From Crocinitomicaceae bacterium (GTDB taxonomy: Bacteria > Bacteroidota > Bacteroidia > Flavobacteriales_D > Crocinitomicaceae), in contig JAGNZC010000002.1 of the NCBI GenBank assembly GCA_017984635.1, positions 1 through 64,000 of the forward strand: a stretch of DNA of 64,000 nucleotides, read 5' to 3'. The notes under the pieces are model-generated. The model saw only the letters and a list, made by a program, of their open reading frames with translations, did no database searches and was not told where the DNA came from. This document shows positions 6,616-55,511 of this stretch, in pieces (positions within the stretch are counted from its first letter, which is position 1; each line of letters begins with the position of its first letter). The translations under genes and the position numbers were made by a program.

Positions 6616-7005
6616 TTAGCTTAAGAAACGGTGTTTTTGGTTGGAATAATTAACACAAAAAGATCCGCTCATTTTTTTTCTATTATTTGCTACAAATCGG
6701 TATAATTGGTCGCGTTGACAAATGGGTATTAGTTTAAAAACAAACAAAAATGAAAAATACCATTTTAAAAAAGAAAGAACTTTAAAAAAACCAGAAGATT
6801 GAGAATACAACTGATACGATGTATACAAATAAAACGTAGATAAGTCTGGTTTAGCACATCCTTTTTCTTCAAAAAAACGCGTCGCAAAATCACTATCTAT
6901 AGATGAGAAATAAAGTTTTGGACTTTTTTCAAATCGAATTACCCATTGCACAACGCGATTGCACAAGCCACATTTGCCGTCGTAAAAAAGAATATCTTTT
7001 TCCAT
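6616..7005 (-). CDS. DCC-family thiol-disulfide oxidoreductase-like protein (DUF393)
   Basis: Start set at ATG 7005 (MEKDILFYDGKCGLCN), giving 129 residues. The open frame continues upstream to 7161, but that part lies inside the non-coding RNA and has no family similarity. The N-terminal DGKCGLCN (9-16), with its CxxC pair, is the defining motif of the DCC/DUF393 family, which resembles thioredoxin and is assumed to handle thiols; a biochemical role is not established. A hydrophobic stretch around WYFSFLFVFKLI (about 82-94) may be buried or membrane-associated. The gene follows the terminator of the ncRNA on the same strand, so it may depend on readthrough or a promoter in the short A/T gap. 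Confidence 0.8.
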   Translation of the reverse strand: MEKDILFYDGKCGLCNRVVQWVIRFEKSPKLYFSSIDSDFATRFFEEKGCAKPDLSTFYLYTSYQLYSQSSGFFKVLSFLKWYFSFLFVFKLIPICQRDQLYRFVANNRKKMSGSFCVNYSNQKHRFLS

Positions 7006-7015
7006 TTTTATAATT

Positions 7016-7239
7016 AAAAAGACCCATGCAGTTGGGTTCTCTGAAGCTTCAGAAAACACGTTTAGAGTTGCCGCAAAACGCTGTAATCTACTGAAAGTAA
7101 ACTTTGCCAGATTAACTGGTGTAGCCCGCCATTGTTTATACGAGACTTCTCTTAGGGTCAAAATTGTTAAGCTTCAAAATAAGCTGCATGGGCTCCGAAA
7201 CCGGATAAGGTCACTGCACGTATTCAACGTTGTACCTCT
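7016..7239 (-). ncRNA. Structured non-coding RNA, candidate 6S-type RNA
   Basis: About 224 nt with RNA-gene signals and no credible protein. A perfect -7 element (TAATTTTG, minus strand, 7251-7244) precedes it, and a T-run at 7020-7016 ends it. The two ends can pair over long range: CCCATGCAG near the 5' end is the exact complement of CTGCATGGG near the 3' end, a closing stem like that of 6S RNA. Local hairpins are visible inside (CCAGTTAATCTGG; TACTTTCAGTA; CCGGTTTCGG; palindrome CTGAAGCTTCAG). Size fits 6S RNA (about 180-220 nt). It lacks the tRNA-like ends and T-loop of tmRNA and the conserved core of RNase P RNA. Identification as 6S (the Flavobacteria-specific Rfam class) is inference and not verified. 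Confidence 0.6.
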
Positions 7240-7243
7240 TCTA

Positions 7244-7251
7244 CAAAATTA
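7244..7251 (-). promoter_or_regulatory. -7 element for the structured RNA (TAATTTTG)
   Basis: A perfect TAnnTTTG on the minus strand placed 4-6 bases before the inferred RNA 5' end near 7239. The 5' boundary of the ncRNA is based on it. No clear -33 TTG is visible, only a T-rich run at roughly the right place. Confidence 0.55.
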
Positions 7252-7371
7252 AGTAATAGTTTTGTTTGAAAAAATATATCCTGTGAAATTTTAGGAATTT
7301 GTTTAATCGTTACTAACAGAAACTGCAAAAAGAAAAAATTTAATTAAATTAGCACATTCAAAATAAAAAAA

Positions 7372-8142
7372 ATGAGTTTAATCCAAACAGCAGAAAGAGT
7401 TTCACAAAAAGATTTATCCGATAACTTTGTGTTTCAACGTTCAATTTTAGCCTATTATGAAGCAGCGAAAATTGTTTCAGGTAATGTATTAGAAATTGGA
7501 ACAGGAAGTGGTTATGGAGTAGAAATTATAGCTGCAAAAACGGATAAATTCACAACAATCGATAAATTTGAAACAACGCTGGATCCGATTGAAAATGTTG
7601 AGTTCATCAAAATGTTAATACCACCTTTAAAAGGAATTCAAGATAATTCATTTGATTTCGTTATTACATTTCAAGTGATAGAGCACATTAAAAATGACAA
7701 TTTGTTTGTTCAAGAAATTTACAGAGTATTAAAACCAAATGGTAAATTAATTGTAACTACACCTAACAAACCAATGTCAATCACTAGAAATCCTTGGCAC
7801 ATTAGAGAATACACAGTAAATGAATTAACTGAATTACTCTCAAAAAGCTTTCAAAAGGTGGAACAAAAAGGTGTTTTTGGTAACGACAAAATCATGAACT
7901 ATTACAATTTAAACAAAGCTTCTGTTCAAAAAATCACACGCTTTGACATCTTTAATTTGCAATACCGTTTACCGAGACAATTGTTACAAATACCTTATGA
8001 TTTAGCGAATCGCATGAATCGTAAAAAACTATTAAAAGAAAACACTTCGTTGGTTTCTGATATTGTAATGGAAGATTATTTCATCGATGATGCCAATGCT
8101 TCATGTTTTGATTTATTTTACATTGCTGAGAAAATAGTTTAA
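7372..8142 (+). CDS. Class I SAM-dependent methyltransferase
   Basis: 256 residues with a Methyltransf_11-type core. Motif I VLEIGTGSGYG (39-49) binds S-adenosylmethionine, VITFQVIEHI (about 97-106) is the acidic post-motif II region, and RVLKPNGKLIVTTPNK (about 119-134) is the usual strand-5 segment. No membrane segment or signal peptide. Such enzymes methylate small molecules, lipids or quinones; nothing in the sequence or neighbourhood identifies the substrate. The gene stands alone, upstream of the convergent mnmD. The C-terminal ~110 residues (RFDIFNLQYRLPRQLLQ) are not part of the common core and may form the substrate lid. Confidence 0.8.
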   Translation: MSLIQTAERVSQKDLSDNFVFQRSILAYYEAAKIVSGNVLEIGTGSGYGVEIIAAKTDKFTTIDKFETTLDPIENVEFIKMLIPPLKGIQDNSFDFVITFQVIEHIKNDNLFVQEIYRVLKPNGKLIVTTPNKPMSITRNPWHIREYTVNELTELLSKSFQKVEQKGVFGNDKIMNYYNLNKASVQKITRFDIFNLQYRLPRQLLQIPYDLANRMNRKKLLKENTSLVSDIVMEDYFIDDANASCFDLFYIAEKIV

Positions 8143-55392: not shown

Positions 55393-55400
55393 TATCTTTG
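55393..55400 (+). promoter_or_regulatory. -7 element of the SRP RNA (TATCTTTG)
   Basis: A perfect TAnnTTTG immediately before the RNA, whose closing stem begins at 55404. It fixes both strand and 5' end. Confidence 0.65.
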
Positions 55401-55401
55401 T

Positions 55402-55503
55402 GCGGGGTAAGTCTTGTACGACCAGCTCCCTCTTAATCCTCCAGGACGGGAACGTAGCAAAGGTATGAGGTTGTAGCGGTGCGATGCGAGTAGCTTACCC
55501 CAC
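55402..55503 (+). ncRNA. ffs: Signal recognition particle RNA, small bacterial type (4.5S-like)
   Basis: A ~100-nt hairpin RNA. GGGGTAAG (55404-55411) pairs perfectly with CTTACCCC (55494-55501) at the base. The apical part contains CCAGGACGGGAACGTAGCA (55441-55459), which aligns base for base with the E. coli 4.5S core (AGGTCCGGAAGGAAGCA) at the conserved GGAA-type tetraloop and asymmetric loop that Ffh binds. A perfect -7 element precedes it, and a T-run (55504-55510) ends it. With Ffh and FtsY it targets nascent membrane proteins. The lack of an Alu domain is normal for this short type. ffh is not in the window. Confidence 0.9.
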
Positions 55504-55511
55504 TTTTTTTC

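Follow-up and report, generated by a model that had tools for sequence, protein, structure and literature searches.

Does the minus strand of the window (the whole 64,000-nt stretch of DNA that was analysed) carry a 6S RNA gene at 7016-7239? 6S RNA is thought to hold RNA polymerase back when growth slows. A preliminary description of this locus had proposed a probable 6S RNA, and that reading is supported here by a match to Rfam family RF01693, by homology to 6S-Flavo RNA, by helices flanking a bubble and by the zapA neighbourhood of relatives; we consider it very probable that the genome's 6S RNA is encoded at this locus. Taken by itself, the window RNA gene is real and unremarkable: it codes for a divergent 6S RNA that scores under Rfam's cut-off. 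The wider points suggested by the sequence comparisons, namely an apparent single family, its linkage to zapA and a boxA-like site, are the interesting part.

Layout of the locus and its Rfam match

The predicted RNA starts near 7239, downstream of a TAnnTTTG -7 promoter element, and ends in a T-run. Its closing stem pairs CCCATGCAG with CTGCATGGG exactly (7192-7184 with 7031-7023); including one G-U pair, the stem has 10 pairs (P1, 7193-7184 with 7031-7022). From 7196 to 7016, with its ends joined by P1, the RNA measures 181 nt, or ~224 nt with the predicted leader. The RNA thus has two marks by which we recognise the class, a length of ~180-200 nt and a closing stem, here covarying, that joins its ends. 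The perfect -7 element, the exact long-range stem and the T-run end had all been named in the preliminary description and are present. The features of the locus are as follows.

7016-7239, minus strand: predicted 6S RNA transcript, ~224 nt; -7 element and T-run used to infer the 5' and 3' ends, respectively
7244-7251, minus strand: TAnnTTTG -7 promoter element, TAATTTTG; perfect motif
7208-7237, minus strand: leader hairpin A, AGGT/ACCT plus inner helix; found in the window's family, 7/7 predicted pairs compensatory in 22 sequences
7194-7205, minus strand: leader hairpin B, TCCG/CGGA; 3/4 pairs with compensatory changes
7184-7193, minus strand: closing stem P1, 5' arm; covariation in 48 sequences and RNAalifold
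7022-7031, minus strand: closing stem P1, 3' arm, separated from the T-run by one base; same basis as the 5' arm
7169-7175, minus strand: helix P2, 5' arm; covariation and swapped-arm test
7043-7049, minus strand: helix P2, 3' arm; covariation and swapped-arm test
7153-7168, minus strand: central bubble, 5' strand, 16 nt; interval separating P2 from P2b
7050-7063, minus strand: central bubble, 3' strand, 14 nt, AAACGTGTTTTCTG; interval separating P2b from P2
7149-7152, minus strand: helix P2b, 5' arm, AGAG; swapped-arm test
7064-7067, minus strand: helix P2b, 3' arm, CTCT; swapped-arm test
7134-7137, minus strand: helix P3, 5' arm; covariation; weakest helix, in another register in the window sequence
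7076-7079, minus strand: helix P3, 3' arm; covariation
7121-7131, minus strand: apical helix P4, 5' side, TGGCGGGCTAC; covariation, inside the RF01693 core
7082-7091, minus strand: apical helix P4, 3' side, GTAGATTACA; covariation and RF01693 match
7037-7056, minus strand: local 3' hairpin TTTTCTGAAGCTTCAGAGAA, P2 competitor and proposed release hairpin; folding
7016-7020, minus strand: terminator T-run; sequence
6616-7005, minus strand: DCC1-like thiol-disulfide oxidoreductase gene, PF04134 E 2.2e-17; neighbour outside the RNA
7372-8142, divergent from the RNA: methyltransferase gene, the other neighbour; frame and domain search

The DCC gene does lie on the strand of the RNA, as first described, and its ATG at 7005 follows the T-run by ~10 nt. 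The warning that a longer open frame could mislead an annotator here also proved apt: a listed 181-aa frame (7161-6616) begins at TTG and extends the DCC gene through the RNA, and the Pfam DCC domain fits the 129-aa frame that starts at ATG 7005. Given the TTG start and the overlap with the RNA, the N-terminal part of the 181-aa frame is most likely spurious. No sigma-70-type promoter was found in 6900-7400, and no tRNA or tmRNA in the window. Elsewhere in the window, a Bacteroidales small SRP RNA (RF04183) lies at 55398-55504 on the plus strand, with 104.3 bits against a cut-off of 55.2.

An Rfam scan of 6800-7500 returned one strong match, to RF01693 (Bacteroidales-1) at 7194-7016 (48.7 bits, E 7.3e-7). 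The remaining three matches up to E 10 had E 0.064 or worse, and tmRNA, RNase P, 6S-Flavo and RF00013 gave no match at E <= 10. Rfam's own description of RF01693 reads '6S-Bacteroidales RNA suggested'. The alignment is full length, covering model positions 1-179 with the conserved core and the apical helix, and in the window's genome this locus alone stands out, the next-best RF01693 place having E 0.33. The locus does not reach the RF01693 gathering cut-off of 60 bits; the window RNA is thus homologous to RF01693 and no formal member by the Rfam threshold. At E <= 0.001, RF01693 matched 52 of the 119 genomes searched (the window's own and relatives), with Bacteroides ihuae as the control having an above-cut-off match. 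Since only one of these 52 passes the cut-off, the analysis places a 6S gene in a group that the cut-off misses nearly wholly.

Covariation, the rod and a candidate release switch

Folding energies alone are modest evidence: the z-score is -2.5 for 226 nt and -2.8 for 181 nt, with 2 of 200 shuffles equally good in each case. Base-pair covariation in related genomes, whose lack was to have counted against the initial reading, was found in 48 sequences. These form alignment A1, made from sequence alone from 48 of the 52 RF01693 loci (G037, G031, L049 and L052 were left out; the core-motif search did not place L049 and L052, and both are included in a second alignment, A2). A script seeking the best complementary stretch could draw the closing stem at the same place in 48/48 relatives. 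On A1, P1 is paired in 98.1% of cells (n=48), and 8 of its 10 pairs show double changes. P2 reaches 91.3% (double changes in 5/7 pairs), P3 66.4% (7/7), and the two parts of P4 100% and 99.5%. When the partners were slid by 1-3 columns, pairing on A1 fell from 89.3% to 29.6-44.3%.

Unaided, RNAalifold predicted P1 and P4 on A1, and did not predict P2 or P3 there. P2 had been picked by eye on the A1 sequences, so we compared each sequence's own arms with swapped arms. Own arms of P2 scored a mean of 19.8 against 15.5 for swapped arms, and those of P2b 11.3 against 9.9, a level reached in 0 of 10,000 permutations in either case, though such permutations do not remove ancestry shared within clades. 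For P2b, no single column register was valid across the alignment. In A2, a model-fitted alignment that leans towards the structure, 97.9% of P1 cells and 94.0% of P2 cells are paired, with double changes in all pairs of both. Both the closing stem and the second helix are thereby new relative to the Rfam structure line, where they are left unpaired.

The covarying helices form a rod, in which the closing stem and P2 lead to the bubble (16 nt on one strand, 14 nt on the other) and P2b, P3 and P4 lie beyond it, in that order. A rod of closing stem, bubble and terminal arm is the known layout of 6S RNA. On the question, raised in the preliminary description, of a large central bubble in the fold, covariation speaks for it by placing P2 and P2b on the two sides of the 16/14-nt bubble, whereas the unconstrained energy minimum of the window RNA has none. 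That minimum (-51.3 kcal/mol, against -44.6 for the conserved rod) keeps the closing stem and is without P2b, P3 and P4. Unconstrained pair probabilities are 0.91 for P1, 0.40 for P2, 0.58 for a local 3' hairpin, and <=0.01 for P2b, P3 and P4.

The 3' arm of P2 belongs to a quasi-palindrome and could alternatively close this hairpin (7056-7037). Constrained folds gave -44.6 kcal/mol for the P2 form and -42.9 for the hairpin form. The 1.7 kcal/mol difference would leave the two states close enough for a switch driven by product RNA. Folded alone, the 3' strand of the window RNA reaches -9.8 kcal/mol (z -2.5). A z below -1 was found for 48 of 92 loci, among them 21 of 29 from the window's family, 1 of 8 above the RF01693 cut-off and some Chitinophagales-type loci; these z-scores are rough, as they use mononucleotide shuffles and score any fold of the strand. 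Covariation of the 3' hairpin on A1 was not above that of shuffles, its score being reached in 101 of 500, and 70.3% of its A1 cells are paired (25/500 shuffles as high). The missing covariation on A1 and the lineage-limited z-scores point to a lineage feature, not a family rule, and a release device, if real, would be equally lineage-specific. We also considered the bubble sequence UAAACGUG as a mimic of the TAnnTTTG element and rejected it as too weak, with only 4 of 6 fixed letters agreeing.

A mechanism can be proposed on this basis. The rod would mimic an open promoter; its bubble would then capture the housekeeping RNA polymerase holoenzyme and, while growth slows, keep it away from real promoters. 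Once nucleotides are back, polymerase would use the 5' bubble strand as template for a short product RNA and advance into P2. This would set free the P2 3' arm, which might then close its own hairpin and release the polymerase. The competition between P2 and the 3' hairpin is thus a testable switch. In Bacteroides thetaiotaomicron, the available portion of PMC7366714 (Ryan et al. 2020) describes a 6S RNA by RNA-seq together with evidence for two classes of product RNA; its main text, as far as available, gives no Rfam family name for this RNA. Equating the B. thetaiotaomicron 6S RNA with RF01693 rests on Rfam's wording and the above-cut-off match in Bacteroides ihuae. According to the available part of PMC9723704, on the transcriptome of F. 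psychrophilum, 6S RNA was one of four known RNAs detected.

Family extent, zapA linkage and modes of expression

A covariance model built from the 48 A1 loci (R1) matched 94 of the 119 genomes, the window's own included, and these 94 contain both genomes that had previously shown only weak 6S-Flavo matches. Two places were found in two genomes, G020 and G084. The second place in G084 is weak (E 0.007). The two copies in G020, in a fragmented assembly that is 75% complete, are both strong (C77 4198-4382 and C84 3120-3295) and could reflect a duplication or a mixed bin.

RF01685 (6S-Flavo), searched at E <= 0.001, matched 11 of 295 genomes of the class, two of them above its cut-off. R1, which has no RF01685 loci in its training set, matched 11/11 of these loci at full length (E 8e-15 to 1e-6, filters off), and its matches span the closing stem that the 108-position Rfam model omits. 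On this evidence RF01685 and RF01693 look like one family. In G279, RF01693 itself matches (E 9.6e-5) the locus that scores 96.8 bits with RF01685, above the latter's cut-off; it also matches the RF01685 places in G138 and G405, and at L037 both families match one place weakly (E 0.051 and 0.32). The cmscan tables give neither family a clan, so two Rfam entries without a shared clan would be united. We found no statement of a single family in the 6S-Flavo and Bacteroidales-1 literature, including the available part of PMC2864571, and claim no priority.

A joint model (R2) was built from alignment A2, for which 93 loci were given, chosen from more than 200, and 92 kept; L095 was missed at default filters and recovered with filters off. 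From A2, 10 A1 loci, mostly near duplicates, were omitted, and the RF01685 loci form part of its training set. On the window, which is also a training sequence, R2 gave 140.6 bits at 7196-7019. It matched 103 of the 295 class genomes, among them all 11 RF01685 and 17 RF01693 class genomes, so that one shared model finds a single place in each matched genome. In the phylum sample, 48 of 296 genomes matched, two of these outside the class. R2 was not found in 192/295 class and 248/296 phylum genomes, absences that are soft, since searches over 40 genomes use stricter filters. Four near-complete genomes of one genus of the window's family (G046, G063, G356 and G381, genus g22) had no R2 match under strict filters and may have lost the RNA or carry a strongly diverged form of it.

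The gene neighbourhood was examined at 40 R2 places, out of 103 found in the class, and at the 6S-Flavo loci. Pfam identified ZapA in 32 of 44 upstream frames, nearly all 44 coming from other orders and one from the window's family. The frames derive from 50 loci, 39 of the class (duplicate L234 removed) and 11 of 6S-Flavo; five loci had no same-strand frame of at least 50 codons ending near the RNA, and L095 was left out. In a second, order-level and named set of 46 frames (of 49; L103, L152 and L162 left out), ribosomal protein L20 was commonest, with 7, and ZapA was absent from the 25 commonest families, outside which a single ZapA could be hidden. By eye, an L20 gene stands upstream of the 6S RNA in the Bacteroidales-type loci L101, L102, L122, L145, L147, L173 and L178. 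A similar protein with an end near YGSLTTFN.LF..K(E/D)(D/E) stands upstream in L025, L031, L032, L040, L050, L238 and L264, also by eye.

In E. coli K-12 the gene order is zapA, ssrS, fau, and the available text of PMC7641849 describes zapA-ssrS in beta- and gammaproteobacteria. The window genome's zapA is on another contig and does not adjoin the 6S gene; a search beside it for a 6S remnant found none, the best score being 14.9 bits (E 0.056, filters off). A zapA or boxA arrangement with 6S in Bacteroidota was not found stated in the literature, including the available part of PMC7641849, and again we claim no priority.

The TAnnTTTG element and the T-run at the window recur in relatives. In the counting applied to the A2 loci, the window's element begins 58 nt upstream, and 13 of the 29 A2 loci of its family have an exact one at 58-64 nt; among the others, 2 have it elsewhere and 14 not at all, some showing near versions by eye. 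All 8 loci above the RF01693 cut-off carry it 22-36 nt upstream, and only 4 among 92 loci have it further than 66 nt away. The leader hairpins of the window's family covary in 10 of 11 pairs across 22 chosen sequences, a count taken on the alignment from which the leader structure was predicted.

Upstream signals were then tallied over 130 loci (duplicates L234, L152 and L162 removed, L095 added). TAnnTTTG lies within 70 nt upstream in 51 of them, and in 0 of the 29 that a zapA motif recognises (against 32 by Pfam). A different motif, GTTC[TA]TT, resembles a boxA antitermination site. Over the same 70 nt it occurs in 22 of these 29 loci; of the remainder, 18 of the 50 that lack TAnnTTTG and 3 of the 51 that carry it have the motif. 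As a control, regions 70-700 nt upstream gave 33 occurrences in 80,866 nt. In 18 of the 22 zapA-linked loci the motif begins 0-8 nt past the zapA stop codon, by our reading of the loci. The 40 loci with the boxA-like site and without TAnnTTTG have it 15-66 nt upstream (L089-L093, L096 and 34 among L028-L272). Eleven genomes had a 16S match, and in 10 of them the 16S rRNA leader carries a motif of this kind with up to two mismatches; the eleventh, G279, offers only ~120 nt of leader.

This split between TAnnTTTG and the boxA-like site suggests two modes of expression, by read-through from zapA or from an own promoter, with 39 of 130 loci showing neither. The window appears to have the own-promoter mode. 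We lean slightly towards a common, perhaps ancestral, operon of the class sampled that runs from zapA through the boxA-like site to 6S, reflecting a very old zapA-6S link that E. coli would share, and from which Bacteroidales and the window's lineage freed 6S by a TAnnTTTG promoter and lost the boxA-like site. In the operon, the boxA-like site, which often lies no more than 8 bases from the zapA stop, would spare polymerase Rho-dependent termination on its way through the untranslated RNA, and through such read-through 6S output would follow a cell-division gene. In the window's lineage the gene stands apart from zapA with a predicted promoter of its own and a ~45-nt leader containing two hairpins; this leader might be removed by processing, or it might serve as a mark of the 5' end. 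The zapA, boxA-like site and 6S RNA arrangement is a testable operon model; if true, 6S supply would be tied to cell division across two phyla.

Other readings and known systems

Could the RNA be a conserved structured small RNA with another role, a base-pairing regulator or a protein-sequestering RNA that merely resembles 6S? Of the alternatives this one survives best, and we regard it as improbable. It gains from a lowest-energy fold that is not the rod, and from an assignment drawn from sequence and architecture, R2 giving no match on E. coli ssrS. It has to explain away the homology to 6S-Flavo, the zapA neighbourhood, the covariation-supported rod with its bubble and the product-RNA evidence in the available part of PMC7366714. 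RF00013, moreover, matched 0 of 99 genomes, the window's own included, so there is no classical 6S competitor at that sensitivity. Far less credible is a role in cis for the DCC gene, as its 5' leader or a regulatory element, an idea invited by a same-strand RNA that stops just ahead of the DCC start codon: a DCC-like frame lies downstream in 2 of 48 loci (strict pattern, window included; a third, L014, is alike by eye), and the RNA persists beside many other genes with its own T-run at the end. Least probable is a chance inverted repeat without RNA product, since, although a 9-base stem is weak evidence in 224 bases and the z-scores, roughly -2.5 to -2.8, are modest, the RNA's recurrence and covariation across 48 sequences, the independent RF01693 match (E 7e-7) and the R1 match to the window at 7196-7019 (160.4 bits, E 2.3e-36, as a training sequence) make it very unlikely.

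If the window RNA is a 6S RNA, as we think very probable, its resemblance to the classical RNA of E. coli (ssrS) lies in a similar size, closing stem, bubble and terminal arm, and in zapA, which stands upstream in E. coli and likewise in many Bacteroidota loci. A sequence-structure match between the two is undetectable in either direction with RF00013 and R2, which leaves architecture and neighbourhood as the basis of the link to classical 6S. 6S-Flavo (RF01685) is homologous to the window RNA through R1, although its Rfam model holds 108 inner positions only. Nine of the 10 6S-Flavo loci examined follow zapA, unlike the window's gene, and 11/11 are without TAnnTTTG within 70 nt, whereas the window has its own. 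Closest is RF01693, which shares with the window RNA the CAATGGCGGGC ... GATTACA core, the 3' boundary and the full-length match. The closing stem and P2, unpaired in its Rfam structure line, covary here, and the longer 5' leader and the strong 3' hairpin are features of the window.
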